Assembly: GCA_002841625.1 (NCBI GenBank)
Contig: PHAG01000006.1
Location: 62,001-126,000 of the forward strand
Direction: 5' to 3'
DNA: 64,000 nucleotides
Source: Firmicutes bacterium HGW-Firmicutes-1
GTDB taxonomy: Bacteria; Bacillota; Clostridia; Lachnospirales; Vallitaleaceae
Position 1 is the stretch's first letter; the number at the start of each line of letters is the position of its first letter. The position numbers were made by a program, and so were the translations under genes. The notes under the pieces were generated by a model, which worked only from the letters and a program-made list of their open reading frames with translations, was not told the origin of the DNA and ran no database searches. Of the stretch, positions 26,389-55,200 are shown in pieces.

Positions 26389-28782
26389 ATGAATATAGAT
26401 GAAAAGAATTCCTCGCTAAAACTTGAAGCCCCGATACTTCAAGATATCTTAAGAATGAATGACAATAACGAAGAGGAGGTTAACATCAGACAATCTATTC
26501 AAATACCTAACAGCTTTATAAATTATGTGGATAATTTGGAGCTCAGTTTAAGTAAAGCGGAATATATTTTTCTAGCTATAAGTGCATTTATAGCTAGAAT
26601 TGGAGAAAGTCAGTCTTATGAAGTAGACGGCATGGAAAGTTTAGAATTTTTATTCGCTAAAATGATTCGTTACTTCGATAATATCAAACAGAAAAACACT
26701 TATGCCAACGAAATGATTTATAGACTACCAAAATTATTTGTAGCAAATGAAGAAGGGAAAGCATATAAAATAAATATAATTATTGAGCATTGGGGAGATT
26801 TAAATAAAAATTTGAAGAGTGATGAAGATTTAGTGTTTGTAATAGATGATATAAATATGGATTGTTACATAGTTTTCAAAGGCAATAAATATGACAAAGA
26901 AAAAACGAGAAACTTATTAAATAGGCTACCAATTTTTCTGAATGAAATAGCATTAAATCCAAGTGTCCCTATTATGAAAACCAATATTCTATCAACAGAG
27001 GAGTACAATAGAATCGTTGTAGAATGGAATAGTACTTATGTTGAATATCCAAAAGAAAAGTGTACCTATGAATTAATTGAGGAACAGGTTTTAAAAACAC
27101 CGGGTCATATTGCTGTTACTTATGAGGAGGATAAGCTGACTTATAAGGAGTTAAATACGAAGGCAGATCAATTGGCAAACTATTTAAATAATAAAGGGGT
27201 AGAGGAAGGCAAGCTCATTGGCGTGTTTATGGAGAGATCGATTGATTTATTGGTAGTGCTTATAGGAATCTGGAAAGCAGGTTGTGCTTATGTACCGCTA
27301 GATCCTATTTACCCTAAAGATAGGTTGATATATATGATTGATGATGCAGAGCTTTCATTTATAATAACGCAATCAAGTTTAATAGACAAGCTTCCAGAAA
27401 CTGATGCAAGTAAGGTTCAAATTGATCTCGAAAAGGTGAAAATATTTGAAGAAACAAGTAGATTGTGCAGCAAAAAAAACAATAAGAAGCTATCTACAAG
27501 TGCCCGATTGGCTTATGTAATTTTTACATCCGGAACGACAGGGAAACCAAAGGGGATTGAAGTAACCCAACAGGGGTTAACAAACTATCTTTGGTTCGTT
27601 GTAGAAAGCCAAGGCTTTACTGAAAAAGATAAGTTTATGGCCCTTACAACAATTTGTTTTGATATTTCCTTATGTGAATTATTTGCAAACCTTATTAGGG
27701 GTGGGCAAGTAGAAATACTTCCAACAGAATTGCAACGTAATCCATATCTTTTATTGGAGAAAATAGAGAATAATTGGGCAACTGCAATTCAAGCAACTCC
27801 CGCCACTTGGGATATGTTAGTTACAGTAGGCTGGGAAAAGAAACTGCCTTTAAAAATCTACTGTGGTGGAGAAGCAATGAACCCACAACTTGCTGAGAAG
27901 CTTATTCCTCGTTGTAATGAACTTTGGAATATATATGGCCCAACAGAAGCAACTATTTGGTCATCAATTAGTCATATTAAATCAACTAATATTACGATAG
28001 GACATCCTGTATATAATACCCAGTACTATGTGTTAGATAAGAATTTGAATCCTGTACCAGAGGGAACAGCTGGAGAGCTATATATCGGTGGAGATGGTCT
28101 TGCGCGAGGCTATCTTAACAGAAAAGATTTGACAGCGGAAAGGTTTATTTCTAACCCCTTTGAACAAGTGAAGAGCAGCAGAATATATAAAACAGGTGAC
28201 TTTGTTAAATTCCTTTCTGACGGAGATGTTGAATGGCTAGGAAGAATTGATAATCAAGTTAAACTAAAAGGATTTAGAATAGAATTAGAGGAAATAGAAA
28301 CCGTTCTTAAGCAACAACCGGAGATTGATAAAGCGGTAGTAGTTTTAAGAGAATACAACAAGGCTGGCTTAAAAGGCTTATATGCATTTGTTTTAGCTAA
28401 AAAAAATTGTGAAAATCCTAATAATAAGAAAATATATGAAAGAATGAAAGAAGTATTGCCAACATATATGATACCAAGGTATTTTATTTATTTAAATGAA
28501 ATTCCCCTAACAATGAATAAAAAAGTGGATAGGAAGTCATTAACTACGATGACAATGGATGAAATTAAAAATAAATATGGTGATTATTCCAGAAACAGTT
28601 CACTAGAAGTTAAGAAAAAGGAGGCTGAGGTTCAGAAAAATAAAGACGATGATAAACGTTTAGGGTGCTTTTGTAAAGATGGAGAGAGAGAAAAAAAGAG
28701 AGAGAAAAAGAAAATTAAAAAGATAAAGATAAAGACAGATTTTATTCATGAAGGAAATATGATTGCAGAGGTTTCTAATTAA
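26389..28782 (+). CDS. Stand-alone NRPS adenylation protein, truncated copy of the loading module
   Basis: This 797-residue protein has an N-terminal piece of a condensation-domain C-lobe (about residues 10-215, itself shortened by about 30 residues) and a complete adenylation domain (about 220-730). Core motifs look intact: A3 FTSGTTGKPKG, A5 NIYGPTEATIW, A7 IYKTGD, A8 GRIDNQVKLKGFRIE, and A10 with the catalytic Lys in NKKVDRKSL. It is strikingly similar to the A domain of the giant synthase (36772-38260), and all residues I read as specificity positions are identical. There is no formyltransferase and no carrier domain; the sequence instead ends in a Lys/Glu-rich tail (about 740-797). It could still load a carrier in trans, or it may be a decaying duplicate. 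The gene has its own cluster-type promoter. Confidence 0.82.
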   Translation: MNIDEKNSSLKLEAPILQDILRMNDNNEEEVNIRQSIQIPNSFINYVDNLELSLSKAEYIFLAISAFIARIGESQSYEVDGMESLEFLFAKMIRYFDNIKQKNTYANEMIYRLPKLFVANEEGKAYKINIIIEHWGDLNKNLKSDEDLVFVIDDINMDCYIVFKGNKYDKEKTRNLLNRLPIFLNEIALNPSVPIMKTNILSTEEYNRIVVEWNSTYVEYPKEKCTYELIEEQVLKTPGHIAVTYEEDKLTYKELNTKADQLANYLNNKGVEEGKLIGVFMERSIDLLVVLIGIWKAGCAYVPLDPIYPKDRLIYMIDDAELSFIITQSSLIDKLPETDASKVQIDLEKVKIFEETSRLCSKKNNKKLSTSARLAYVIFTSGTTGKPKGIEVTQQGLTNYLWFVVESQGFTEKDKFMALTTICFDISLCELFANLIRGGQVEILPTELQRNPYLLLEKIENNWATAIQATPATWDMLVTVGWEKKLPLKIYCGGEAMNPQLAEKLIPRCNELWNIYGPTEATIWSSISHIKSTNITIGHPVYNTQYYVLDKNLNPVPEGTAGELYIGGDGLARGYLNRKDLTAERFISNPFEQVKSSRIYKTGDFVKFLSDGDVEWLGRIDNQVKLKGFRIELEEIETVLKQQPEIDKAVVVLREYNKAGLKGLYAFVLAKKNCENPNNKKIYERMKEVLPTYMIPRYFIYLNEIPLTMNKKVDRKSLTTMTMDEIKNKYGDYSRNSSLEVKKKEAEVQKNKDDDKRLGCFCKDGEREKKREKKKIKKIKIKTDFIHEGNMIAEVSN

Positions 28783-29571: not shown

Positions 29572-30324
29572 ATGGTAAAAGAGGCATTCCCAAACGCCAT
29601 TGTTAAAAAAGTAACAATAAAATTTAATGATAATGAATATAAAGCAATTATTTGTATTTGTAATTTTAATAATAATAGCCATTATGATCATGCAAGAAAA
29701 CTTTTTCATAAGGAAGAACTGGAGTATTATTCTTCATTAAAATATGAAAAAAGGCAAAAAAGCTATGTTATGGGAAGATACTGTGCAAAAAGAGCTATTT
29801 CAGAATATCTAGAGGATGAGAATGTAGAGAGTATTACGATAGGAAAAGGGGTTTTTAATCAGCCAATTATATTTGGCCCTCAAAATCAAAATCTTCAAAT
29901 CAGTATATCACATAGTGGGGATTTTGGAGGAGCTATTGCATACCATGAAAGATTTGTAATGGGATTAGATATTGAAATAATTGACGAGGATAATCGGGAA
30001 ACTTTAGAAAATGAAATTACGATAGAAGAAAAAGAAATATTAGCATCACTACCATATGATTATAATCGTGGGCTGACACTTTTTTGGACAGCGAAGGAAG
30101 CCTTATCTAAAGCTTTAAAGACTGGTTTGATGACTCCTTTCAGTATTTTTGAAATTAGTAAAATACAAGTGGAAGAAGATTATGCAATATGTGATTTCAA
30201 ATTTTTTGCGCAATATAAAATAAGATCATTTAAGATGGGGCAATATATGTGCTCAATTGCTTATCCGAAAAATATTGAGTTTAATGTTGATAGTAAGGAC
30301 CTTTCAAAGCTGTTTAACATTTAA
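29572..30324 (+). CDS. Sfp-type 4'-phosphopantetheinyl transferase
   Basis: This 250-residue enzyme transfers phosphopantetheine from CoA to carrier-domain serines. It carries the family's two key blocks: GLDIEIID (around residue 131; Mg-binding Asp and Glu) and FWTAKEALSKALKTGL (Trp172, Lys175, Glu176). It also has the P-loop-like SISHSGDFGGA and GRYCAKRAISEYL. The length is typical of Sfp. It is placed between the promoter element and the PP-loop gene, and is expected to arm the eight intact ACPs of the synthases. ATG 29572 follows TATGGAGAG. Confidence 0.92.
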   Translation: MVKEAFPNAIVKKVTIKFNDNEYKAIICICNFNNNSHYDHARKLFHKEELEYYSSLKYEKRQKSYVMGRYCAKRAISEYLEDENVESITIGKGVFNQPIIFGPQNQNLQISISHSGDFGGAIAYHERFVMGLDIEIIDEDNRETLENEITIEEKEILASLPYDYNRGLTLFWTAKEALSKALKTGLMTPFSIFEISKIQVEEDYAICDFKFFAQYKIRSFKMGQYMCSIAYPKNIEFNVDSKDLSKLFNI

Positions 30325-30355: not shown

Positions 30356-31351
30356 ATGAAACGATGTATTAAATGTGTTATGCCACAAGTTGAAGGCCAT
30401 GTGGCTTTCGATGAGGGAGGAGTATGCAATGTATGTAATCGTTTTGATGAAACAAAGATTTTATCTAAGGAAGAAAAGCAGGTGGGAGGTTATGAAGACT
30501 TAATCAAGAAGATTAATAAACATAAAGGTGATGGACGTGGAAAATATGATTGTGCTGTAGGTGTTTCAGGGGGTAAGGACAGCATAATGGCACTATACAT
30601 AGCTAAGAATGAATTGAATCTGAATCCTTTAGCGATTTTCATTGATAATGGATTTTCTTTAGACGAAATGTTTCATAACATTAAAAGTGCTACAGATATT
30701 TTAGGAATTGATTTGGTTATATATAAAGTGAACAAATTTAAAGAAATCTTCAAATATTTGCTTGTAAAGAAAAAGGAAGTATATTATTGCCGTGTTTGTC
30801 ATGCGCTTTTAGACGTATATGTTCGAGAAGTTGCTGATAGATATCATATCAAAATGCTCATTGGTGGATATACGAAGGGACAAGAATTTGCAAAGAGTGA
30901 AGAATTATTTTGGATCTTTAATGAATCTGATGAAAATGCAAATAGTGAAATCGAAAAATCACCTGGGCTTAAAGATACCCTTGATATTCTTAATAATTTA
31001 GCTCTTTATTTGTATGAAAACTATAGTCATATAGCTCAAGTTAATCCATTCCAATATATTGATTACAATGAAGGCAATATATTAGAGTTTTTGACTGAAA
31101 AACTTGATTTTAAAAGGCCAAGCAATAGCTGGCCAAAAGATTCAACAAATTGTTCATTTAATTTTCTATCACAACATTTAGCCATGAAATATTGGGGTTA
31201 TTCACAACATGAAACAGAGGTAAGTACTTTAGTAAGAAAAAAAGAATTAACTAGAGAAAGAGCTTTAGATATTATTGAAACACCGATTCCAATGGAAATA
31301 CTTGAAGAAGTTTTACAAAAATTAGACTTAAAATATGAAGATATAATTTAA
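30356..31351 (+). CDS. PP-loop ATPase, N-acetyl sugar amidotransferase (WbpG/PseA)-like
   Basis: This 331-residue member of the adenine-nucleotide alpha-hydrolase superfamily has the PP-loop SGGKDS at residues 71-76. Two CxxC pairs (Cys4/Cys7 and Cys24/Cys27) form a likely zinc ribbon, and a third CxxC lies in YYCRVCHALL. The N-terminal CIKCVMP...FDEGGVCNVCNRF matches WbpG/PseA-type proteins, which use an ammonia donor to amidate sugar substrates. No sugar genes are present; it sits between the PPTase and AT genes of the synthase cluster, so it may make an amide, amidine or thioamide on the product (inference). ATG 30356 follows GGGGGG; an upstream in-frame ATG at 30257 overlaps the PPTase gene and is unlikely. 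Confidence 0.83.
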   Translation: MKRCIKCVMPQVEGHVAFDEGGVCNVCNRFDETKILSKEEKQVGGYEDLIKKINKHKGDGRGKYDCAVGVSGGKDSIMALYIAKNELNLNPLAIFIDNGFSLDEMFHNIKSATDILGIDLVIYKVNKFKEIFKYLLVKKKEVYYCRVCHALLDVYVREVADRYHIKMLIGGYTKGQEFAKSEELFWIFNESDENANSEIEKSPGLKDTLDILNNLALYLYENYSHIAQVNPFQYIDYNEGNILEFLTEKLDFKRPSNSWPKDSTNCSFNFLSQHLAMKYWGYSQHETEVSTLVRKKELTRERALDIIETPIPMEILEEVLQKLDLKYEDII

Positions 31352-34986: not shown

Positions 34987-35034
34987 GTACACTGCATAGA
35001 CGAACAACTTAGTTGAATATTGGAGGTAATGGGA

Positions 35035-38000
35035 ATGAATTTGGGCGAAGGAAATTCCTGTTATTTAATTGGAGAGGCTTCTTTACTAATAAAATGTGGA
35101 GATATCTTATTAAATAATGGATTTTTTATTAAAGGTGTAATATCAAAGGAAGGCAAAATTTGTGAATGGGTAAGAAAAAATGATTTAAGCATTATTGATC
35201 CTAATGATGATTATATAAAAGTACTTAAAGAAGAACCTTTTGACTTCTTATTTAGTATTGTCAATTATAAAGTACTTAAAAAGGATGTGTTGGATCTTCC
35301 AGAGAAAATGGCAATTAATTTCCATGACGCCATTTTACCTAGATATGGGGGAATTCATGCTACCTCCTGGGCACTTATGAACGATGAGAAATTCCATGGT
35401 ATTACATGGCACATTATGGAAGAAGGCGTAGATAAAGGGAATATTTTAAAGCAAAAGAAAGTGGATATTGACAACAATGAAACAGCTTTTTCTCTAAATT
35501 TAAAATGTTATATTGCTGCAGTTGAAGCCTTTGAGGAGCTCGTTGATGAGCTTTCATCAAATGCTTATAATGCAATTCCTCAGAACTTAGAAGAGAGAAC
35601 TTATTATGCAAAAACAAAGAGGCCAGAAAATGGTGGAGTAATTTCTTGGCCAAACAGCGCCGAAAATGTGGATAGACTGGTTAGAGCAATGGATTTTGGT
35701 GGACAACCTAACAGCTTAGGCTGTGTGAAAATATTTATTAAGGGACATTTTTATATTATTTCTAAAACGGAGATAAAAAAATCAAGATCTAACGCTGCTA
35801 ATGAAGGAAAAGTAATCAAGATAAATAGAGACTCATTGGTGGTTGGAACTACAACTTTTGATATTAGCCTCAAACTAACCACAATTATGGGCGAAGACTT
35901 AGATATACTTGAAATTGCTCATAATTACGAATTATATGAAGGCTTTTCTTTAGAAAACACGGAAGCTGACATTGAAGTAAAACTGAATGATTTATATGTT
36001 ACAACAGGGAAACATGAAAACTATTGGAAAAAAAGACTATTAAATCTTGAAGTACCAATCGTGCAAGATATTATTAGAATGGATGATAAAAAAGAGGAAG
36101 ACTTTTACATAAAGCATCAAATTCAAATACCAAATAATTTTATTAAGTATATAGATAGTATGAATAAGGGATTCAATAGAGCTGAATATATTTTCCTTGC
36201 AGTAAGTGCATTTATAGCTAGAATTGGAGAAAATCAGTCTTTTGATATTGGTTTTTCTAGTGAAGAATTAAAGCTGGAATTGGCAGGATTAGAAAACAAG
36301 TACTCTAATGTTATTCCATATAGAGTTGATATTATGGATACAGAAAGCATTGATGACCTATTTTCTAAGATGACCAATTATTTCGAAAACATCAAAAAGA
36401 AAAAAACCTATGCCTTTGAAATGATTTATAGACTACCTGAATTGCTAACTGAAAGCAGGAGAGGAAATACATTTAACATTCCTATTGTTGTCGAAGAAAG
36501 TAGAAACATAAATGAAAGTTTGGTTGATGGTGATTTAGTATTGTTGATAGATAAATCGAATATGAATTGTTGCATAAGCTTCAAAGGTAACAAGTATGTG
36601 AAAGAAAAAACCATTAGATTAATGGATAGATTATCAATTTTTCTAAATGAAATAGCTATAAATCCTAATACCCCTATTATGAAAATCAATATTTTATCAA
36701 TTGAGGAGCACAATAAAATAGTTGTAGAATGGAATAATAACTATGTTGTTGAATATCCAAAAGAAAAATGCACGTATGAATTAATAGAGGAACAGGTTTT
36801 AAAAACTCCTGATAATATTGCTGTTATTTATGAGGATTCCCAACTCACTTATAGGGAGTTAAATACGAAGGCTGATCAGCTGGCAAGCTATTTGAAGGCG
36901 CAAGGAATAGAGGAAGGCAAGCTTGTTGGAGTATTTATGGAAAGATCAATTGATTTATTAGTAGCGCTAATAGGTATCTGGAAAACAGACTGCGCATATG
37001 TACCATTAGATCCAATTTATCCGAAAGATAGACTTTTACATATGATTGAAGATGCAGAGCTGCCACTCATCATAACTCAAGCCGATTTAATTGACAGGCT
37101 TCCAGAAACTACTGCAAAAGTGGTTCAAATTGACCTTGAAAAAGCGGAAATATTTAATGAAACGAATTTATTAGTTTCAGGTAAAAAAGGTAGAGGAAAG
37201 AAAAAGCTATCTACAAGAGATAGATTAGCTTATGTCATTTTTACATCTGGCTCTACAGGAAAACCAAAAGGAGTTGAGGTAACTCAACTTGGACTCACAA
37301 ACTATCTTTGGTTTGTAGTAGAAAGTCAAGGATTTACTGAAAAAGATAAATTTATGGCACTTACAACAATTTGCTTTGATATTTCCTTATGTGAACTATT
37401 TGCAAATCTAATTAGAGGTGGACAGGTTGAAATACTTCCTACAGAAATGCAACGAGATCCATATCTATTAATGGAAAAAATAGAAAATAACTGGGCTACT
37501 GCAATTCAAGCAACTCCAGCTACTTGGGATATGCTTATTACAGTTGGTTGGGAAAAGAAGTTGCCATTGAAAATATATTGTGGTGGAGAAGCAATGAGCC
37601 CTGAGCTTGCAGAGAAGCTTATTGGACGTTGTAATGAACTTTGGAATATCTATGGGCCAACAGAAGCAACAATTTGGTCATCAATAAGTCATATTAAAAC
37701 AACGAATATTACGATAGGTCATCCTGTATATAATACTCAATACTATGTATTAGATAAGAACTTAAATCCAGTACCTGAGGGAACACCAGGAGAGCTATTT
37801 ATAGGTGGTGATGGTCTTGCTCGTGGTTATCTGAATAGAAAGGATATGACGGATGAAAGGTTTATTTCTAGCCCCTTTGAAAAAGAAAAAAGTGAAAGGA
37901 TTTATAAAACAGGGGATTCAGTTAGATTCCTTCCAGACGGAGATGTCGAATGGTTGGGAAGAATTGATAATCAAGTAAAGCTAAGAGGCTTTAGAATAGA

Positions 38001-39050
38001 ATTAGGAGAAATTGAAACCGTCCTTAAGCAACAAGCCGAGATAGAGAAAGCAGTTGTTGTTTTAAGAGAAGACAATGCTGGATTTAAGGGTCTATATGCC
38101 TTTATTTCAGCAGAAAAGGATTGTGAGATTTCTGTAAATACTAAAGTTGGTGAGAAATTGAAAGATTTTTTACCTAGCTATATGATACCAGGACATTATA
38201 TTTATTTAAACCAATATCCTCTTACAATGAATAAAAAAGTTGATAGAAAGTCATTATCTACAATGACAATTGATGAGATAAAAAATAAATATGGTGATAA
38301 AAATAGAAATGATGTTGATGCTAAGGAAAAAGATGTTGGAGCAAAACTAGAGGCAATTCTAGAAGCTAAACAAGAAATAAAACAAGAAATAAAACAAGAA
38401 ATAAAACAAGCAACACAACAAAACCTTGACATTGAAAGAAAAAGTGTTGAAGATACTTTGAAAAAAGACCTACTCAATTTAGCGGCTAGTGTTCTTAAAG
38501 TAGAGGTAGATTCCCTTGACTTTTTAACACCACTTGGTGAATATGGTTATGATTCAGTTAGCTTTACAGTATTAAGCATAAAAATGAAAGAAAAATATAA
38601 AGTAAGCATTAGTCCAGCAATTTTTTATTCTTACGCTTCGCTGGAAAAGCTAACAGAATATATATATAAAACGTACCAAAAGGAAGTAAACTTACTTTAC
38701 GCACATATGATTGATGACAACATAATTGAAAAAGCTAAAGAAAAGGACCTTTTAATCGAGGCATTAGAAGTAGCTATAGCAATAGAAGAAAACGTGATTC
38801 ATCTTCTTATGAAAGACTTAGGTAAACTAACTGCACAAGTAATAAAATGTGATGTTGATAAGATAGATTTTACAACGCCTTTAGGTGAATATGGATATGA
38901 TTCTGTCAGTTTTACAGTGCTTAGCATAAAAATAAAAGGTAAGCTAGCAGTAACAATAAGCCCAGCAATTTTTTATTCATATTCTACTATAGAGAAGCTT
39001 TCAAATTATATTTTTAAGACCTATAAAGAAGTTATTTTAAAGACTTATAG
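35035..39050 (+). other. Loading module: formyltransferase - half condensation - A - ACP1 - ACP2
   Basis: The FT domain (35035-35960) is of the methionyl-tRNA formyltransferase type: Asn95, His97 and Asp133 sit at the same spacing as the catalytic residues of E. coli Fmt, followed by the LP of ILPRYGG. Next comes only the C-lobe of a condensation domain (36001-36740), without HHxxxDG. The A domain (36772-38260) has complete core motifs. Lining up its pocket by hand gives D-I-C-A-I-C-I-I-W, sharing D, I and the final I-W with glycine-type codes; the amino acid is not certain. Two ACPs follow with Ser1174 and Ser1290 in nearly identical GEYGYDSVSFTVLSIK contexts. Expected role: activate, N-formylate and load an amino acid starter. 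Confidence 0.88.
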
Positions 39051-42000
39051 TGACAGCATGATAGCGACAGACCCAATTATAAAGGATAATATTTCTAATA
39101 TTTCTATTGAGAAAAAAGACACAGTAGTTCAATGGGGCACAGATGTTCATAAGAATACCGCTTACTACAGCAAAAACAGTGAGAAAGAACCCATTGCAGT
39201 AATAGGTATTGGAGGAATCATGCCTCTATCACCTAATATGGATGTGTTTTGGGACAATCTTGTGAATGAAATAGATATGATTACAGAAGTACCAAAAGAT
39301 AGATGGGATCCTAATGGTTTTTATGGTGAGGATGCAAAAGCTGGAACAAGCGCTAATCCAATTAGAGCAGGCTTTATCGAAGATGTTGATAAATTCGACG
39401 CTGCTTTTTTTAGCATTTCCCCAAGAGAGGCTCAGTTAATGGATCCTCAGCAAAGATTGTTTATGGAAACTGTTTGGAAAACCGTTGAAGATGCGGGTTA
39501 TAAGCCATCAGATCTTTCAAACTCAAAAACGGGAGTATATGTAGGGGTAGTTGCCACGGATTATTGGGATTTAATGTCACAAAATCCATTTAATATGGAT
39601 ACTTTTACTACCTCAGGAAGAATTAATTGTGTTATCGCAAATAGAATTTCCTATATGTTAAATTTAAGAGGACCAAGTGCCACAATTGATACAGCTTGTT
39701 CAAGTTCTCTTGTTGCTGTTCATCGTGCGGTTGCAGCAATGCAAGACGGATATTGTGATGGAGCAATTGTTGGTGGAGTAAATGTAATGGCAAATCCATT
39801 TTTCCATGTTGCAATCGGTAAAAAAGGAATGTTAAGTGCTGATGGACGTTGTAAAACCTTTGATGAAAGTGCAGATGGATATGTTAGAGCTGAAGGTGTA
39901 GGAGCAATCTATTTGAAGCCTTTGTCAAAGGCAGAAGCAGATGGTGATCATATCTATGCTATTATTAAATCCTCGGTAGAAAATCATGGTGGAAGAAGCA
40001 ATTCCTTAACTGCTCCAAGTGCAGAAGCACAATCAGAGCTGCTTGTGGAAGCTTATGAAAAAGCAGGAATAAGCCCGGATACGATTTCCTATATTGAAAC
40101 TCACGGAACAGGAACGAGTCTTGGCGATCCTATTGAAATCAATGCTTTAAAAGATGCCTTAAATAAAATGTATCAAAAGAAAGGCTCGGTTTCTAAAATA
40201 GGTTATTGTGGTGTTGGATCAGTAAAAACAAATATTGGTCATCTTGAAGCTGGAGCTGGAGTTGCAGGAATGCTTAAAGTACTCTTGTCATTTAAAAATG
40301 GAGTTTTACCTGGAAATATAAATTTAAATCAAATCAATCCATATATTGAGATTGAAGATAGTCCATTGTACCTTGTAAGAAATACGAAAGAGTGGACTAG
40401 GATTATTGATGATTCAGGGAATATGATTCCAAGAAGAGCAGGAGTGAGTTCTTTTGGCTTTGGTGGTTCTAATGCCCATGTTACATTAGAAGAATACCAT
40501 AGTAGAAAAGAAGTAATAAGAGATGCTACACAGCCACAGTTGATTATACTATCCGCCAGAAACGAAGGCAGATTAAAAGCCTATGGAAAAGATATGGTAG
40601 AGTTTATCCAAAAAAATAAAGACATAAAAGAAATTTCCTTGCTAAACTTTGCATTTACTCTCCAAACAGGTAGGGAAGAGATGGATGAGAGACTGGCTGT
40701 GATTGTTCATTCTTTCACTGAGTTAGAAGAAAAACTTTGTAAGTATCTTGATGGAAAGAATAATATAGAGAATTTATTTACAAATAATATTAAAGGTAGT
40801 AAAAAAAGAACTGAATTATTGATGGAAGGGGATGAAGGGGAAGAATTTCTGAAAAATATTATTAAGAACAAAAAGCTTTCCAAATTAGCGCAACTTTGGA
40901 TTATTGGAGTTGAAATAAACTGGGATGTTATATATGCAAATTGTAGACCAAAGAGGTTGCCACTACCAACATATCCTTTTGAAAAGGTTAGACATTGGAT
41001 ACCTGAAACACAAAACAACTTAAATAATACCAATAGGTTATCATCAAAGGCGCTGCATCCATTTATTGATAGCAATGAATCAACCCTTGAAGAACAAACC
41101 TATAAAAAGACTTTAAATAAATATGATGAAAGTATTCAGGATCATATTGCCAATAATGAGACTATATTTCCAGGAGTTGCATATTTGGAAATGGCTAGGG
41201 CAGCAGGTCAATTGGCCAATCATAAAGGCAAAGTGGTAAAACTTCAAAATAATGTATGGTCGAAAGCGCTTATTTTAAAGGAAAACCCAATTGATATAAG
41301 CATTTCCTTAAACCCAAGTAGTCAGGGAGTTGAATATAAAATTAGCTCTAAGGGAGTAGAAGGTAAATCGATTCACGCCCAAGGAAAAATTGAATATAAG
41401 AATGGATACGCTCAAGAGGAATTTCTGGATATTAGCTTACTAAGAGCAAAAATGCAAAATAGTCTTACGAAGGATGATTGCTATCATTTATTTTCAGAGT
41501 CGGGCTTTCAATATGGAAGAACGTATAGATCAATCAATCATTTGTATTATAACCAGTCAGAAGCACTATCACAGATTGAATTACCACAGGAGTGTAAAGC
41601 AAATGTTGAAAATTATATGTTGCCTCCAGCACTTTTAGATGGTGCACTTCAAAGTGTTATCGTATTTATTGGGAATTCATTTACTGAGACGGGAACTATA
41701 TATATGCCATTTGCAATGGGAGAGTTAGAGATTTTAGGTGAGCTACCTGAAAAGTGTTTCTCTTATGCAATACAAACAGAAAACCAACAAGGAACAGGCT
41801 ATAGTGTAAAGAAATTTGCAATATATATAACGGATGAAGCGGGGAAGGTTCTAGTTAAGATGAAGGATTTTTCGTTACGAGGACTCACTCCTTCAACGCC
41901 AATGAAAAGAGCTATTGAGAAGAGCCCTTCTATGAGTTATATGAAAAATAGTTGGGAATTATCTTCAATAGAAGCTGAAAGAGCACAAGATACTATTACA

Positions 42001-45000
42001 GGAAATATATTGGTTTTTGATGAAGGTGAAGAAGTATTCCAAGGTTTAATGACAAAGCTTAATGGCAATTCAGAGAGTACTGTTCTTGTAAAACCTGGCT
42101 TAGAGTATAAAGAACTTGAGGGAAATATTTTTGAAATAAACATTAACAATCAAGAAGATTATAGAAAACTATTTAGCACGCTTTTAAACAAGGAAATGAT
42201 TCCTGACAATGTTTTACATTTATTGTCTAAGGAAAATTTGATTTGTGATAAAGAAAAAATAATGAACCAGCTTAACAGAAGCATATATTCTATGTTGTAT
42301 TTGAGCAGGGCTTTACTTGAGCTAAAGTTAAGAAATAAAACAAAACTTGTTTATTTTCTTAGACCTGAAAGTATTGGATTATCACCTCAGCATTCAGCTA
42401 TTAAAGGTTTCTTAAAAGGACTTGAAATTGAGAATTCTAGATTTAGCTGTAAAACAGTTGAAACTCTTCCAATTTCAAGCGTAGAAATGGTGACGCTATG
42501 CATGAATGAACTTGGAACCATTACCTCAACGAAAGATAAAGTAGTAAGATATGAAAATGGCAATAGATTTGTGTGTAAGTATGTAGACATATTAGAAGAT
42601 ATAGTGAAAGAGGCTAATAGTCTACCTATTGTAGAAGAAGGAGTTTATATTATTACAGGTGGTGCAGGAAGCCTAGGCTTTATATTTGCAGAATACCTAG
42701 CAAAAAAAGTGAAAGCAAAACTTATTCTTTTAGGAAGATCGGCTTTAAATGATGAAAAAGCCAAGAGATTAAAAGAGCTTGAAGCTCTTGGAAGTGAAAT
42801 CACCTATTTAAATATTGATATTTCTAAGGTTAAAGATGTTGAGAGTATTCTAAAAGGGACAAGAAAAAAATTCGGTAAAATTAATGGAATTATTCATTGT
42901 GCAGGAGTAACGAAAGATTCCTTTATTTTCAATAAGACAAAGGGAGAGGTTGACGCAGTAATCGCTCCGAAGGTTTGGGGAACAATCTGGCTTGATGAAT
43001 TAACAAAGGAGGATAAATTAGATTTCTTTGTTATGTTTTCTTCTATTTCCTCCATACTTGGAAATACTGGACAAAGCGATTATGCCTATGCTAATAGCTT
43101 TATGGATGACTATGCAAAAATGCGTGATGTTCTAAAGGGTGAAGGAAAACGCTTTGGAAAAACGCTAGCTATAGGCTGGCCATTTTGGAAAGATGGTGGC
43201 ATGAAAATAACTGCTGAAACTGAAAAGTTTTTAACAAACACATTAGGAATATATCCTATGGAGATTGAGGAAGGCATCAAGGCTTTTGAGATTGGACTTA
43301 CTCAGAAAGAAAATTATTTTATTGTTTTAAAAGGGTATAAAGAAAAACTTAACGCGTTATTAGGTATTAGCAGCATATGGATTAGCCAACCTAGTATAAG
43401 ACAACAAGATAAAGTTGTGCCCAACATGATTTCAAGTGGGCATTATGAAGAAAAGCCTATGATCAACATGATTTCAAGTAGACATAATGAAGAAAAGCCT
43501 ATGATCAATATGATTTCAAGTGGAAATAATAAAGAAAAAATCAATAACAATATGACTTCAAATGCACATATTGAAGAAAATATAATAAAAGCTTTAATCA
43601 AAATGACTTCTCAAATACAAAAGATAAATGAATCAGATATCGACGCTGAAGGAGATATTAGCGAATTTGGTTTTGATTCAATTGCATTTACGGAGTTTAG
43701 TAATCAGATAAATCAAGAATATGATTTAGGAGTTATGCCTTCCATATTTTTTGAACATCAAAACCTTAATTCTTTAGGAAAGTATTTGTATCAAGAATAC
43801 AGAGAAACCTTAGAGAAGATATTTAACACTGCAAATACTACAGAAGTAGCAAAAGTAACAAATGTGGGCAGTGTTGCAGTAAGTGAAGCGATAATGACCT
43901 ACGATGTTCCAACTAGTTTATATAAAAAAGAAATTGGTATCGATTTAAACGAGCCAGAGTATAAAGATCTAGAGGATAGATATCAAGATAATAGATATCA
44001 AGATAATAGATATCAAGATAATAGAAATCAAGGTAATAGATATCAAGATAATAGTAATCAAGATAATAGTGATCAAGAGAAGGGATTACTGGAAGCTGTA
44101 ATTAAAGAACTAATAAATTTTACATCAAAGGTTCAAAAACTAAATATTAATGATATTGACGCAGAAGCTGATATTAGTGAGTTTGGGTTTGATTCAATTG
44201 CCTTTACTGAATTAAGCAATGAGATTAATGGAAAATACAATATTGGTATTATGCCATCAATATTTTTTGAGTATTCAACACTAGCTTCTCTAGCTAAATA
44301 CTTAGTAAGTGATTATTATGAACAGCTAAAACAGATTCATAAAGGACATCAACAGAAACAAAAAGTAATTTCAAGGACGAATTCTCTGGAGATCAAGGAT
44401 GAAAAAAGAGCAGTAATCAATAACGAGGGCTTTTTACCATCTTTTAGATTTAAGAATTCTTTTAATGAAAATAGCATTAATAAAAATAGCAGTACTGAAA
44501 TTGTCTTAGATGAAGAAATAATAGATCAAAATGCAACTAAAACGAAAGAGGCGGTTGCGATTGTAGGTATGAGCGGTGTTATGCCTCAGTCAAAAGATCT
44601 TAAAGAGTTTTGGGGTAACCTTGAAGCTGGAAAAGATTTAATTACTGAAATTCCCAAGGACAGATGGGACTGGAAAGAAATTTATGGAGATCCAGTCAGT
44701 GAAGATAATAAAACAAATGTAAAGTGGGGAGGCTTCATGAAGGAAGTGGATAAATTTGATCCGCTATTCTTCGGAATATCACCAAAGGAAGCTGTTTTAA
44801 TGGATCCACAACAAAGAATTTTTATGGAAAATGTTTGGAGATCCTTAGAAGATAGTGGATTAAAGCCCTCAGATATTTCAGGTACCAAAACTGGGGTTTT
44901 TATTGGTGCAGGTGCATGGGATTACTTATATTTATTAAAAGAAAATGATATCAATATTCAAGCACAGACCTCCTCTGGGGTTTCCTTTTCCATACTTGCA

Positions 45001-48000
45001 AATAGGGTTTCCTATTTACTGAATTTACATGGACCTAGTGAAACGATTGATACTGCGTGCTCTAGCTCTTTAGTTGCGCTTCATCGTGCAGTTGAACAAA
45101 TTCAGAATGGAAATTGTGAAATGGCTTTTGCTGGTGGAATTAATGTAATGTTGAATCCTGCAATTTATATTTCACTTTCAAAGGCTGGAATGCTCTGTGA
45201 AGATGGAAGATGCAAAACCTTTGATAAAGCTGCAAATGGTTATGTAAGAGGAGAAGGATGTGGCGTTCTTTTACTAAAGCCTTTAAGTCAAGCAATTAAG
45301 GATAAAAACCATATATATGGTGTAATTAAGGGAAGTGCGGTTAACCATGGTGGTCATGCTAACTCACTGACCACTCCAAATCCAAATGCACAATCTGAGC
45401 TTATTCAAAAAGTGTGGAGGGATGCTCAGGTTAATCCAAGTACAATTACATATATGGAAACTCATGGTACAGGAACTAGTTTGGGCGACCCAATAGAGAT
45501 TAATGGATTAAAAAAAGCTTTCGATCATCTTTATCAGGAATGGGATATAAAGGAAGTTGGAAAACCATATTGTGGGCTTGGAGCTGTTAAAACCAATATT
45601 GGACATCTTGAATGGGGTTCAGGGGTAGCAGGAGTTATTAAGGTTCTGCTTGCTATGAAGTATAAAAAGCTTCCAGCTTCTATCAATTTTAAGGAGCAAA
45701 ACCCATATATTAAACTTGAAAATAGTCCATTTTATATTATTAATGAAACAAAGGAATGGGAAGCTTTAATTGATGAAAATAATATACCAATTCCAAGAAG
45801 AGCTGGAGTAAGCTCCTTCGGTTTTGGTGGTGTAAACGCCCATATAGCCATTGAAGAATATGAATATCCAGAAACTATTCAAATAGAAGATAATACACAA
45901 GAAGAGCTAGTTTTACTTTCCGCAAAAAACGAAGATAGATTGATAGATTATGCTAGACAAATGATAGCTTTTATTGAGGACAAGGTTGTTCAAACGACGT
46001 CTCAGGATTTAGATTACGAGTATATTTCTAGGCTAGTTCAAGATGAAATAAAATTGCTTACAGCTATCATTATAGATGTAAACAAAGCGGAAATAAGTAG
46101 CTTTGAGGAACTAGAAGATTATGGTTTTGATCTTGTTAGCTTAAATAAGCTAGCAGAAGATATAGGTAATAAATTCGAAATTGAGCTAAGTGCTAATGAT
46201 ATTGCTAGCTGTTCTACAATAGAAAATATTACAAAGTATTTATGCAATACATATTACCAGATATTAGCAATAAAATTTCCAAAAAACGATAATAGCAGTA
46301 GTAGTGTAAGTGAAATAAATTATAACATTAGCCTAGCAGATATAGCCTATACCCTTCGTAATGGTAGAGAAGAAATGGATGTAAGGTTAGCTATGGTTGT
46401 TCATAATGTAAAAGAATTAAAAAACAAACTTGAGCAGTTTGTGAATGGCTCTGAAAAGATTGAAGGAGTATCAATTGGCAATAAAACCGATAAATCAAAA
46501 ATTGATTTTCTAATTTCAGGGGAAAAAGGAAAAGAATTTATTAGTGATTTACTCAAAGACGGGAAGTTATTAGAAGTAGCTCAGTTATGGGCAACTGGTG
46601 CGAAGATTGAGTGGAGTAAGTTGTATAATAATGAGCTCAGAGTGCCGATATCGCTTCCAACTTATCCCTTTGCAAAGGAAAGATATTGGATAACTGATTA
46701 TATGAGTAATCAGTCAGGTGCTTTAAATAGAAAAGGGATCGTGAAAAAACTTCATCCTCTTGTGGATATAAACTCCTCCAACTTTTATGAACAAAGATTC
46801 ACTACAGTTCTGAATAAAAATGAGTTTTATTTAAAGGATCATGTTGTTGATGGTCAAAGCATCTTTCCAGGAGTTGCATATATTGAAATGGCTAGAGCTG
46901 CAGGACAGATGTGTGGAGCAGGAAGAGTATCGAAAGTTTCTGATATTCTCTGGGCCAAGCCAATTATTGTTGATCAAGAGTCTAAAGAAATTCATATTAG
47001 TCTTTTGCCAGATGGAGAGGATGTTGAATATGAGGTTGTATCAATGAACGAGGATAGTAGTAGAACTGTATATTCTCAAGGTAAGCTAATAATGGATACA
47101 GGTGAAGAAAATGATGCTATTGAATTCATTGATATTGAAGAAATAACAAGTAGATGCAATGTAAAGAAGCCAGGTGATTGGATCTACAAAACGTTTAAAG
47201 AAATGGCCTTCAACTACGGCGAAACTTTTCAACCAATTAAAGAAATCTTTTGCGGTGAAAATGAAGCACTTGCTAGGCTGGAAGTATCGGATAGTTTAAC
47301 AGAAGATTTTGATGAATTTATATTACATCCAGCTCTAATGGATGGTTCTTTACAAACAATTATTGGTATGAATAATTCAGGTGTTGGGGGTGGAGAAATT
47401 TATCTACCTTTCACAATGGGTGAAGTGGAAATAATAAAACCCTTGGAAAAAGAATGCTATGCCTATGGGCAAATGATTGATGAAATTGGAAAACACAATT
47501 CGAATATAAGAAAATATAACATTCAAATTACTGACACCAGAGGACGAGTACTGGTAAAAATAAATGACTTTGTAATGAGAGCCATTGTTCTAAGTGAGAT
47601 CAAGAAAGAGGAAGAAGTTCATTACTATCACAGCCAATGGTCAGAAGAAGATCTCGTGATCAAGGGTAATTTTGAACTTCAAAAAGAATGCATACTGATT
47701 TTTGATACAAATGAAAAGCTATATAATGAATTATTGAAGAAAGCACCAAATAATCAAGCTAATATTTGGCTTGTTAAGCCAGGTAAGAACTATAGGGAAG
47801 TTGGAAATAACATTTTCGAAATCAGTCCAGAAAAGCCAGAAGATTATAAGGCTCTAATTGAAATGTTAGGTAAGAAAAATCAAATTCCGGATTGTATATT
47901 GCATTTTTGGTCAAAGGAAAAATTTGAAGGAAATGAAGCTTCCTTAAATAGACAGATGGATTTAAGTGTGTTTTCAACTTTTAATTTAAGCAAAGCGCTT

Positions 48001-51000
48001 ATGGAAGCAAGAATTAGTAAAAAAGTAAAAATGGTGCATATTCACGCGAGTATAAACGATAATATTGAACCACATTATAGAAGTGTTAGTGGTCTAGCAA
48101 AGACTGTTGGAATTGAAAACCCTAATTTGAATATTAAAACTGTTGAAGTGCAAAATCCATTTGAAACCTTTGACAGAGCCGTTGCAGAACTTGCTGCTGG
48201 ACAAGAAGATGGGGAAGTTCGTTATGAAAATGGATTAAGACTAGTTAGAAGATATAAAAAATTGGAGCTAGATATTTTTAATAAGGAAAAAGAAATTCCT
48301 GTAATAGATCATGGAGTTTATCTGATTACTGGAGGCGTAGGTGGACTTGGACTAATTTTTGCAGAGTATTTTGCAAAAAGGGCAAAAGTAAAACTAGTAT
48401 TAACTGGAAGATCGGACTTAAGTAATTCTAAGAAAAATAAAATTAAAGAAATTGAGAAGTTAGGTAGTGAAGTCACCTATGTAAAATGTGATATTTCAAA
48501 CAAAGACAAGGTTTCAGAATTAGTCAATGAAGTAAAGAAAAAGTATGGGTGTATAAATGGAATCATTCATGCTGCTGGAGTAATTAAGGATTCATTTATT
48601 TTGAAGAAAACTCTTAAGGAAATGAAAGAGGTAATTTCACCAAAATTATATGGAACTATATGGATTGATGAGTTAACCAAAGACGAAAATCTTGATTTTT
48701 TTGTAGTGTTTTCTTCAATAGCCGCGGTAACCGGTAATATAGGACAAAGTGATTATGCATATGCAAATTCATTTTTAGATAATTATGCTCAACTAAGAGA
48801 AGTTAGGAGAGTCAAAAATCAAAGAAGCGGAATTACGATCTCTATCAACTGGCCGTTATGGAAAGATGGTGGAATGAAGATGGATGAAAGCTTGATAAAA
48901 ATGATGGATGAAGAATATGGATTTTTACCAATTACGAATAATACAGGTATAAATGCTTTTGAAGCTGCGTTAAAATACAGCGTTCCTAATATGATCGTTG
49001 TTAAGGGAGAAGAAAGTAGAGTAAGAAGTGTATTTGAACGTATAGAAAAGGACGAGCCCGTTCCTAAGGAATTTGAAGTTATTGAAAGCTCGAGTAACAA
49101 TACTATAGATTTAACAAGTAAAGTGGAAAAACAACTAAAACTTATTTTGTCTAAGGAAATCAATTTACCAGTAGAAAGAATAAGTGTTCAAGAGCCGTTT
49201 GAAAAGTATGGAATTGATTCGATTATGATCGTTAGTCTAAATAGAGTGCTTGAAAATCACTTTGGTAAGATATCTAAAACACTTTTGTTTGAATATAAAA
49301 ACGTGAAAGAGCTTGCAAAGTATTTTGCTGAAAATCACAGGGATAAATTCATTAAACTTGAGTTTGAGCTTGAGGGTAAAGAAACAAAAGAAGCAATAAT
49401 TAAGCGAACCAACAGAGAAGTAGAGCAAGTAAGTTTGAATAAATCGAGATTTTTTAATAAAAGTATAAATCCTTCTGAGGATAGTTTTTATAAGGACGGA
49501 GATATTGCAATTATAGGCGTAAGTGGACGATATCCAATGGCCAATAATCTTGAGGAGTTTTGGAAAAATCTTAAGGCGGGTAAGGACTGCGTTACTGAAA
49601 TTCCAGAGGAAAGATGGGATAAAGACATCTATTTTGACCCTGATAAAAATGCAAAGGGTAAGAGCTATAGTAAATGGGGAGGTTTTATTGAGAATGTAGA
49701 CAAATTTGATCCAATGTTCTTTAATATTTCTCCAAAAGAAGCAGAATTTATGGATCCACAGGAAAGGATTTTTCTAGAGACAGTATGGCATACAATTGAA
49801 GATGCTGGATATACAAGAGCAGCTTTAGAAGAAGAAAAAGTGGGTGTATTTGCAGGGGTTATGTATAATCATTATCCAATGTTTGCTGCGGAAGAATCCT
49901 TAAAGGGCAATGTGATTGCAGTAAACTCATCTTATGCATCAATAGCGAATAGAGTTTCTTATTATTTGAATTTACGAGGACCTAGCATTGCACTAGATAC
50001 GATGTGTTCATCTTCTATTACAGCAGTTCATTTGGCCTGTGAAAGTATCAAAAGAGGGGAAAGCGATCTGGCAATTGCAGGAGGAGTAAACGTTACCATT
50101 CATCCAAATAAATATATTCTTTTAAGTCAAGGTAAGTTTGCGGCAAGTGATGGTAAGTGTAAGAGCTTTGGAGAGAGTGGAGATGGATATGTTCCAGGGG
50201 AAGGAGTAGGTGCCCTACTGTTAAAACCTTTAGAAAAGGCAATTGCTGATGGAGATAAAATATATTCAGTTATTAAAGGAAGTTCTCTCAATCATGGTGG
50301 AAAGACGAATGGATACTCTGTTCCGAGTCCTAAGGCGCAAGGGGATTTGATTTTAGATGCATTTAAACGTGCAAAAGTAGATCCTAGAACAATTAGTTAT
50401 TTAGAAGCTCATGGTACTGGAACATCTTTGGGAGATCCTATTGAGATTGCAGGTTTGGTGAAAGCCTTTCATGAGTTTACAAATGAAAAACAATTTTGCT
50501 CAATTGGCTCAGCAAAATCTAATATTGGACATTTAGAATCAGCAGCTGGAATTGCTGGAATATCAAAGGTACTTTTACAGATGAAATATAAACAATTAGT
50601 ACCATCAATTCATTCAAAGACAATGAATCCTAATATTGACTTTGAGGAATCACCTTTCTACGTACAACACGAGGTAGAAGAATGGAAAAATCCAGTGATT
50701 GATGGAAAGAAATATCCAAGACGTGCGGGTATAAGTTCCTTTGGAGCAGGTGGTTCAAACGCGCATATTATTTTAGAAGAATACGAAGCTGCTAAAACGA
50801 ATTGGATTAGCCAGGAGCCTCAATTAATATTGATTTCTGCAAGGGATGAAGAGAGATTAAATGCATATCTTCAAGATATCATAAAGTACTTAGATGAAAA
50901 AACATTACTAGAAAATACTTCACTAAGCGATATCGCCTACACCTTACAGGTTGGTAGAGAAAGCATGGAAGAAAGAATTGGAATAGTTGCAGCAACTATA

Positions 51001-52293: not shown

Positions 52294-55200
52294 GATTGAT
52301 ATGGATAAGCTTAAAATAATGAATATGATTAAGGATAAAGAAATTACTCCAGAAGAAGGCTTTAAATTGATTAATGGAATAAAGGATAATTCAAAGCTCA
52401 TTACTTATCAAGAAAAATGGATTGAAAAGGATATTGTTATAAAAGAGATGGACATTTCTCTTAAAGATAATACCATTATTTTTGATACGAATAATGAGTT
52501 AATGGAATTAATCAGAGATTATTCTCTTGAAAACAACAGCTCTTCTCAAATAATATTGGTGTTAAAGGGAAGAAGTTACAAGAAAATATCTCCTAATGAA
52601 TACCAAATAAATCCAAATAATCAAAATGATTATTATAAATTAGTAGCTAGTATGAAAGAGGATGGATTAATACCTAAAAATGTTTTGCATTTTTGGTCGA
52701 AAAATGAGCTAAGAAAAGATGAGAAGTATATAAGCGGGTCTTTAAATGAAAGCATTTTCTCATTGTTTTATTTAGTCCAAGAAATGATGAAGCTAAAACT
52801 TGAAGGAAAAATTAATTTATTGTATTTATATAAAGGTGATTTTGTTAAAGTACAGCCACAATATGCGGGAATAGGTGGATTTTTAAAAACCTTAAAAATT
52901 GAAAATCCGACTTTTGAATGCAAATCTATAGGGGTTAAAGAAATACACAACAAGGAAAAGGTTTTTGAGATAATTATAGAGGAATTTAAAGAAATTGGCG
53001 TTGGAGAAACTGAGGTTCATTACGATGAATTCAACAAAAGATATGTTAGAAGTTATAAACCATATGAGAAAGTTGCTAAGAGTGTTCCTACGACAAAACT
53101 AAAAACTGACGGTGTATATATAATCACCGGTGGTGCAGGTGAGATTGGTATGATTTTTGCCAAACATCTTATTAGTCAAGTAAAGTGTAAGGTTATACTA
53201 ACAGGAAGATCAGAACTAAGTGAAGAAAAAAAACAAAGAATAAAAGAAATTGAAAAAGGCGGTTCCGAAATAATCTACCTAAAGGCAGACATTTCAAAAA
53301 AAGATGATGTTGAAAGGGCTATTTTAGAAATTAAGAAAAGATATCAAAAAATAAATGGAATTATTCATTCAGCTGGTGTTTTAAGGGATTCCTTCTTAGT
53401 AAAAAAGACGAAAGAAGAGTTTGATACAGTGGTTGCTTCAAAGGTATTTGGTACCATTTATATCGATGAATATACTGAAAAAGAAAAACTTGATTTTTTC
53501 GTTCTGTTTTCCTCTATTGCAGCGACATTAGGAAATATAGGTCAAGCTGATTATGCATATGCAAATAGTTTTATGGACTACTTTGCTATGAAAAGAGCGG
53601 ATCATGTTTTAAACAATAAACGCTTTGGCAAAACAATATCAATTAATTGGCCCCTTTGGAAAAGTGGAGGCATGGAAATAGATATTGAAACTGTAAATTG
53701 GCTTAAGGAAAATATGGGAATAGCTCCCTTAAGCAATGAAAATGGAATGATTGCTTTTGAAGAAGCATTAGAGGCACCTCTTAATCAATTAGTAGTCTTC
53801 CAAGGTGAAAAAGAAAAGCTTAGGAAAATTTTTTCTGTTGAAGAGAAAGAAATGAAGAAGAAAAATGATTTCAATCAAGGTGAAGACAATATTAATTCAG
53901 AAGTGTTAAGAGATAAAACAACAGAGTATATAAAAGAGATACTATCAGTTGAGACGAAAAGCCCTATTTCAAAAATGAAAGAAGAAGATGACTTCGAAAA
54001 ATTTGGTATAGATTCGGTTATGGTAATGAGCCTAAATAGACAACTAGAAAAGGATTTTGGGGAGCTATCGAAGACGCTATTTTATGAAAATAATACTATA
54101 GGCGAGCTTTCTGGTTATCTTGTCAATCATTATAAGGATAAGGTGGCAGAAAAATTTCAGCCTACTCAAAACCATAAGGATGATGAAGTACTTGTTGATG
54201 AAGAAAAAATTGTTGAAGCAAAAGTCAATGACTTAAAAGCGAATGAACCAAAAGTCAATGAGTCAAAGGAACTTCCGAGACGAAGATTTATCAATTCAAC
54301 AACAGAAAAGTCAGTGGAAACAATAATAAAAGAAAAAAATAGGTCGAGTGAAGAATTAACCGAAGACGATATTGCGATTATTGGTCTTAGTGGTAGATAT
54401 CCAATGGCCTCAAACTTAAAGGAGTTTTGGGAAAATCTAACCCAAGGTAAAGATTGTATTACTGAAATACCAAGGGATAGATGGGATTATAATGACTATT
54501 TTCACCCTGAAAAAGGAAAAAAAGGTAAAAGTTATAGCAAGTGGGGTGGATTTGTTGACGATATTGATAAATTTGATCCTTTGTTTTTCAATATTTCACC
54601 TAGAGAAGCGAAATATATTGATCCCCAAGAGCGCTTGTTTTTACAAACTGCTTGGCATACGCTTGAAGATGGCGGATATACAAGGGCAAGGCTTAGCGAG
54701 GAAAATGTAGGAGTTTTTGTTGGAGTAATGTTTGGGCATTATCAACTATATGGCCCTGAAATGAGCTCATCACACGCTTCAGTAGCGAATAGAGTTTCCT
54801 ATTATTTGAACTTGAATGGACCTAGTATTGGTCTAGATACGATGTGTTCATCTTCATTAACCGCTATTCATCTAGCAGTTGAAAGCATCAGAAGAGGAGA
54901 ATGTGATGCGGCAATAGCAGGTGGAATTAACTTAAGCATTCATCCTAATAAATATATTTTATTAAGCCATAATAATTTCCCGTCAACAGACGGAAAGTGC
55001 AGAAGCTTTGGTGATGGTGGGGATGGATATGTTCCTGGTGAAGGTACTGGAGCTATACTGATTAAGCCGCTTCAGAAAGCTATAGCTCATGGTGATAGAA
55101 TATATGGTGTTCTTAAAGGGAGTGCTATCAATCATGGTGGAAAGACGAATGGATATTCCGTGCCAAGTCCAAAGGCTCAAGCGGCTTTGATTTCTAGCGT

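Follow-up and report, generated by a model that had tools for sequence, protein, structure and literature searches.

Synthesis of linear gramicidin begins on LgrA, in which a formyltransferase (FT) domain precedes the first adenylation (A) domain and is fused to it without a condensation C-lobe (the solved LgrA F-A construct has 587 residues in all). The line consists of non-ribosomal peptide synthetase (NRPS) modules throughout and has a reductive end. In the conglobatin, oxazolomycin and phthoxazolin pathways an ATP-pyrophosphatase (PPase) adjoins an FT-A(Gly) starter and is the proposed oxazole closer (PMC4504003, PMC5764310); for all three, closure of formyl-glycine to the oxazole is put forward in these papers as a proposal. 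The F-A modules of phthoxazolin (PMC5764310) and conglobatin (PMC4504003) are predicted glycine modules, and module 1 of the phthoxazolin line is minimal (PMC5764310) and keeps the ketone that would become oxazole C5. The thioamide synthetase of closthioamide, CtaC, is an Fe-S enzyme of the AANH superfamily that acts on carrier-bound chains in an anaerobe, with cysteines C154, C157 and C284 and a PP-loop Asp-Ser (PMC6772006).

The stretch of DNA analysed here (64,000 nucleotides from Firmicutes bacterium HGW-Firmicutes-1, referred to below as the window) carries a starter that appears to be related in kind to those of phthoxazolin and oxazolomycin and to represent a separate lineage, in which the action of a PPase would decide the final cap. 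The features of the locus are as follows.

26389-28782, + strand: C-lobe-A protein without FT or carrier, an old duplicate of the loading module (72% identity to PKS1; purifying selection)
29572-30324, + strand: phosphopantetheinyl transferase (PPTase; PF01648), kept in the sister cluster
30356-31351, + strand: N-type PPase; SGGKDS motif, N-terminal set of four Cys, Cys triad C145/C148/C266
31423-34986, + strand: trans-acting AT-AT-PfaD protein (two fabD-type stretches and the PfaD family)
35035-52293, + strand: PKS1 gene, comprising the loading module and modules 1-3, the last of which continues on PKS2
35035-35958, + strand: FT domain with complete Fmt/ArnA fold and N95/H97/D133 (PF00551, PF02911)
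35959-36756, + strand: condensation C-lobe without N-lobe (PF00668)
36766-38250, + strand: A domain, code DICQYGIIWK by alignment, glycine-like (PF00501, PF13193; TIGR01733 above cut-off)
38434-39039, + strand: tandem ACPs (38434-38694 and 38785-39039), both GYDSV
39187-44340, + strand: module 1, with KS1 (39187-40500), a DH-like domain of altered motif (HIANNETIFP), a KR with motifs intact and two ACPs
52286-64000, + strand: PKS2 gene, continuing past the window to position 131712 of contig C6

The open reading frame containing PKS1 (35020-52293) encodes 5757 amino acids when counted from a TTG codon. The likely start is the ATG at 35035, which is preceded by GGAGG and lines up with the sister gene's start. 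The original prediction had placed the loading module at 35035-39050 and the FT residues at Asn95, His97 and Asp133, all of which proved correct. Its reading of a complete FT, a C-lobe by itself, an A domain and two ACPs, all fused to KS1, was borne out by Pfam matches and predicted structures.

In PKS1 the Pfam profiles Formyl_trans_N and Formyl_trans_C matched residues 65-163 and 206-287. Structural modelling, which had been put forward as a check on the FT, returned the full Fmt/ArnA fold with the catalytic triad kept: in an AlphaFold2 model of the FT and C-lobe (mean pLDDT 91), residues 5-309 aligned to whole Fmt/ArnA structures with Z about 30 and rmsd of 3-4 over about 290 residues. Among 40 relatives the catalytic Asn was present in 39, and both His and Asp in all 40. 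As in initiation modules of the LgrA kind, the domain with these residues stands before the first A domain and carrier. The proposal that this FT-A starter should N-formylate the first residue is thus supported by the full FT and its conserved triad.

The Pfam Condensation match covers only profile positions 293-455 of 456, and no HHxxxDG motif was found in the loading module of the window. As structure matches of the FT and C-lobe model all fell on the FT, the C-lobe was modelled separately (271 residues, pLDDT 88). By itself it aligned to residues about 175-460 of condensation domains with Z of 17-19.5, indicating that the region of the condensation match comprises the C-lobe plus linker and not the N-lobe. 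About 270 residues of C-lobe therefore separate the FT from the A domain, in place of the direct joining seen in LgrA. Solved structures of C-A pairs show the C-lobe packed against the A domain. Because the lobe lacks the catalytic motif and C-lobes pack in this way, the natural reading is that it is catalytically dead and would serve as a platform linking the FT to the A domain.

The breadth of the FT-C-lobe-A unit was surveyed with an alignment-based scan of named genomes, which gave 577 relatives of the query; the best 80 were kept. (A close-relative scan of genome contigs with a single protein as query gave no match.) Of the best 80, 74 have an A domain in frame behind the FT, and 42 of these carry a luciferase-like monooxygenase inserted into the A domain (manual count). 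The relatives come from Cyanobacteria, Myxococcota, Planctomycetota, Acidobacteriota, Chloroflexota, Proteobacteria, Bacillota and other phyla. A rhizobial protein is collinear with the window from FT through A with no large gaps, and matches in 72 plasmid records extend over at least 80% of the unit. Loci of the ozm type, which we assign to Streptomyces from their 16S signature and in agreement with their gene order, match the window in FT-to-A spacing (about 255-300 residues), with the C-lobe weakly detected at two loci. Within the window's own class the whole unit was present in 1 of 291 sampled genomes, the window genome itself, and in addition in the sister species HGW-Firmicutes-7; the other matches listed among these 291 genomes do not extend past the FT and resemble ordinary Fmt. 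The unit thus appears either to be old or to have spread widely by transfer; in the window's class it is rare. The idea that the FT had replaced the N-lobe of a condensation domain is not supported as something special to this protein, as the unit is common to most of the best 80 relatives and to rhizobial proteins. Since it is spread over many phyla, any such replacement would be old, and the half condensation domain is widespread in FT starters rather than a one-off.

Variants of the unit were also seen. Three cyanobacterial lines (L059, L061 and L072) have a full condensation domain ahead, giving the order C-FT-C-lobe-A with the FT not at the protein start. Two Legionella proteins (L117 and L120) are single-module FT-C-lobe-A-R enzymes and look like makers of N-formyl amino aldehydes.

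The Pfam AMP-binding match in PKS1 spans residues 590-938 and precedes two PP-binding matches and a KS. The code of the A domain compares with DILQLG[M/L]IWK in Pelosinus, Arenicella and the Streptomyces ozm-type loci, some positions being unread in Streptomyces. At three positions it departs from the code usual for glycine. Glycine is the most likely residue from the alignment, and another small one is possible. The ACPs that follow are 70% identical to each other. The twin carriers described in the original prediction are genuine in the window; they are not general, as HGW-Firmicutes-7 has a single ACP there.

The C-lobe-A protein encoded at 26389-28782 has the same code as the A domain of PKS1 and a Lys-rich tail, and is missing from the sister cluster. 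Its synonymous divergence from the PKS1 copy is 0.79, about the interspecies level (0.83). A dN/dS of about 0.13 over the A domain, together with the intact state of all core motifs checked, rules out a dead pseudogene. It is an old duplicate maintained by selection and perhaps a trans-loading enzyme; whether it belongs to the pathway is uncertain.

The segments between the KS domains contain no AT and a discrete AT-AT-PfaD gene is present, as is characteristic of a trans-AT polyketide synthase. Ten KS domains are distributed over three PKS genes; PKS3 lies outside the window, after PKS2, and is followed by genes for an Fe-dependent alcohol dehydrogenase (Fe-ADH) and an AccD-like protein. Modules 2, 3, 5, 6 and 9 are KS-DH-KR-ACP and modules 4 and 7 are KS-KR-ACP. 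Module 8 has a KS, a degenerate DH and a KR in which the Asn of YxxxN is replaced by Ser, and module 10 consists of a KS (catalytic His changed to Gln), an ACP and a thioester reductase (R) domain, the last two ending the final PKS. KS3, KS4 and KS10 carry the sequence DTMCSS. Because DH-KR modules alternate with KR-only modules, the double bonds are expected to be broken up by hydroxyls rather than to form one long polyene; of the polyene originally predicted, the DH-KR modules are there, and the interspersed KR-only modules speak against the rest. Since R and Fe-ADH close the line, an alcohol is its likely end product.

The PPase gene lies in the operon between the PPTase and AT genes. Among the 291 sampled genomes of the class, a PPase at strong score was found in one. 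Its relatives (43-56% identical) share loci with FT modules in two Pelosinus genomes, a Bacillota MAG, a Thermodesulfobacteriota MAG and a delta-proteobacterial MAG, and members of the window PPase clade are FT-adjacent at all six loci seen. A search of 395 sampled Actinomycetes with the Pelosinus PPase yielded weak relatives only; a profile of the PPase relatives found Streptomyces loci ordered FT-A, PPase, KS, as in ozmO-ozmP-ozmQ. At one such locus (L192), C and A domains, a PPase and a KS stand in ozm order and an FT was not detected.

The PPase tree and alignments drew on the OzmP-type relatives from Streptomyces and not on the sequences of OzmP, PtxD, CongE or CtaC themselves. In this tree the window clade (support 100/99) is separate from the Streptomyces clade (100/100), and quick trees of the FT and KS1 likewise part the window lineage from the Streptomyces ozm-type loci. 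We also considered the window PPase as an orthologue of OzmP; joining of the two clades was marginally rejected (p-AU 0.042), the branches being long. Pairing of an FT starter with a PPase thus appears to recur in separate lineages, of which the window gives a second PPase clade.

The window PPase has the CxxC, third Cys and SGGKDS of the Fe-S AANH enzymes (TtuA/TtcA/CtaC). A CxxC and third Cys at the places of the CtaC Fe-S cluster were present in 25 of 25 assembly-line PPases compared, OzmP-type proteins included, and were absent from all six sugar amidotransferases compared. This shared triad suggests an Fe-S mechanism and raises a new question, that of an Fe-S role in oxazole closure.

HGW-Firmicutes-7 (L036-L039, G002:C8) has the same cluster from the PPTase to the AccD-like gene, with an FT-C-lobe 68% identical to that of the window. 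Its cluster differs in having one ACP after the A domain, no PPase and no counterpart of the 26389-28782 duplicate, and so provides a ready comparison. Pelosinus fermentans JBW45 (NZ_CP010978, about 1.018 Mb) shares FT-C-lobe-A-ACP-ACP-KS1, AT, AT-PfaD and an R-like end. Its PPase is 56% identical to that of the window, and the two KS1 domains fall in one clade. Compared with the window, its cluster has two C-A insertions, a canonical DH in module 1 beside the KR, and different later modules. The architecture is therefore not unique to this locus, the loading module, PPase and trans-AT context all being found in Pelosinus.

Like the window, the ptx and ozm clusters of Streptomyces have a tandem AT and oxidoreductase in trans (PtxA/OzmM), an F-A starter, there predicted to take glycine, and an SGGKDS PPase beside it (PMC5764310). 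Their FT, KS1 and PPase belong to clades other than those of the window. They differ further in that module 1 has no KR, the F-A is on a separate gene and no reductive release is shown. Conglobatin biosynthesis, like the window, pairs an F-A starter with a PPase; there the starter is predicted to take glycine and the PPase is proposed to close the oxazole (CongA/CongE), in a cis-AT PKS whose product, unlike that expected here, is released by a thioesterase to a macrodiolide (PMC4504003). CtaC resembles the window PPase in the order of its Cys triad, a likeness drawn from the reported positions and not from a tree, and acts in a pathway without an FT (PMC6772006). The window adds an anaerobe lineage to the formyl-primed trans-AT lines. 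A search of the accessible literature found no report of a formyltransferase-started trans-AT line in Clostridium or in anaerobes, and one on Pelosinus polyketides found no relevant title.

Taken whole, the explanation that we favour, by a small measure, is a formylating trans-AT starter with reductive release and a PPase that acts on the formamide. A start from glycine with a formyl cap is very probable. The A domain would activate glycine or another residue of about that size and load it on the tandem ACPs, and the FT would move a formyl group from 10-formyl-tetrahydrofolate onto the glycyl amine. KS1 would accept the N-formyl-glycyl thioester and the chain would be extended across nine modules, KS10, which lacks the catalytic His, being probably non-elongating. 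The R domain and Fe-ADH would release the chain as an alcohol. The PPase, whose action is the most conjectural of these steps, would activate the formamide oxygen on the line, with an oxazoline or oxazole ring as the most likely result and a thioformamide as the main alternative. Ring closure ranks first among the outcomes of PPase action, at less than even odds when taken alone.

The starter scheme agrees with a quick tree in which KS1 groups with KS1 of the FT-started Pelosinus and Arenicella lines (SH-aLRT 97), and reductive release with the conservation of the R domain and Fe-ADH in the sister cluster. At two loci with PPases of the window clade (L062 and L070), the A domain has a cysteine-like code (DLFDFSLVWK) and is accompanied by two PCPs and two nitroreductase domains; the Cys-like code with nitroreductases beside the PPase fits azoline formation followed by oxidation. 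Against the scheme stands KR1, which is intact (motifs GGAGSLG and YAYAN), whereas the phthoxazolin module keeps its ketone; the KR in module 1 therefore argues against a simple oxazolomycin scheme. On chemical reasoning, an N-formyl beta-amino alcohol arising from ketone reduction could still close to an oxazoline. The sister cluster also counts against the scheme, since the line can evidently run without a PPase. Further points against it are the three differences from the glycine code and the place of the window PPase outside the OzmP-type clade.

The N-formyl product originally predicted is accordingly supported as to its formyl starter; it is probably incomplete, the PPase in the operon having been overlooked, and the formamide may not survive. 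Survival of the formamide is nonetheless the strongest rival, with perhaps one chance in several of being right: the product would be a polyketide alcohol that keeps its plain N-formyl-glycyl start and, much as linear gramicidin does, has a cap at either end. The PPase would then be incidental or act elsewhere. The sister species keeps the FT, A, KS1 and release genes and has no PPase of the window clade in its genome, and an intact KR1 (and DH1 in Pelosinus) would suit a start that is not cyclised. It is difficult to reconcile with the position of the PPase gene within the operon, the rarity of the enzyme in the class and the adjacency of its clade to an FT at all six loci seen.

Slightly less probable is that the PPase is a CtaC-like sulfur-inserting Fe-S enzyme that forms a thioformamide while the chain is bound to its carrier. 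C145, C148 and C266 and the PP-loop Asp-Ser are at the places reported for CtaC, which itself acts on thiotemplated substrates in an anaerobe (PMC6772006). The OzmP-type proteins of Streptomyces share the triad, yet phthoxazolin has been described as containing an oxazole; possession of the triad by itself therefore does not mean sulfur retention. Nor was a sulfur-donor gene seen within the operon.

That the FT is an inactive relic and the line begins on free glycine seems very improbable: the domain is far from the F domain of LgrA (about 30 bits), but it has the full fold and a triad kept across the family, and it is well conserved with its C-lobe in the sister. WbuX-type proteins turn N-acetyl groups into amidines, and conversion of the formamide to a formamidine by a PPase of this kind can be dismissed almost entirely, since the best NCBIfam match, TIGR03573, falls at 154 bits under a cut-off of 203.2, the PPase is apart from WbuX in the tree and has a Cys triad that WbuX lacks, and no glutaminase or HisF2-like partner adjoins it.

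Combining ring closure with thionation, we tentatively suggest that assembly-line PPases, OzmP-type proteins included, may be Fe-S enzymes akin to TtuA and CtaC and that the window PPase may lead to a thioformamide- or oxazoline-capped alcohol; as a single proposition this is possible rather than probable. If true, it would establish a PPase route on a formyl-glycyl chain, via thioformamide or activated formamide, in an anaerobe, and the sister species would be a natural knock-out that retains the plain formamide.

Several related arrangements were observed outside the cluster. The FT-C-lobe-A(Cys-like)-PCP-PCP proteins at L062 (9700-15309) and L070 (9926-15619) perhaps represent a way to a thiazole that needs no heterocyclisation domain. 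Elsewhere in the window genome, an NRPS of organisation C-A-PCP-C ends in an ATP-pyrophosphatase domain with SGGVDS and the same Cys triad (G000:C1 310878-311882; L050 8860-14487, - strand). This arrangement is kept in the sister species (G002:C48, L051), and the domain is possibly a novel type of NRPS terminus. Streptomyces, Roseovarius and a relative from the same family (G013) likewise have ATP-pyrophosphatase domains that adjoin A and C domains or are fused to them, each carrying the Cys triad (L180-L183, L047, L048 and L052). Lastly, a WbuX-like sugar amidotransferase gene of the window genome lies about 5 kb from a gene for a 260-amino-acid formyltransferase (G000:C6 209892-215125; L009, L004), a pair that perhaps belongs to a surface sugar locus.
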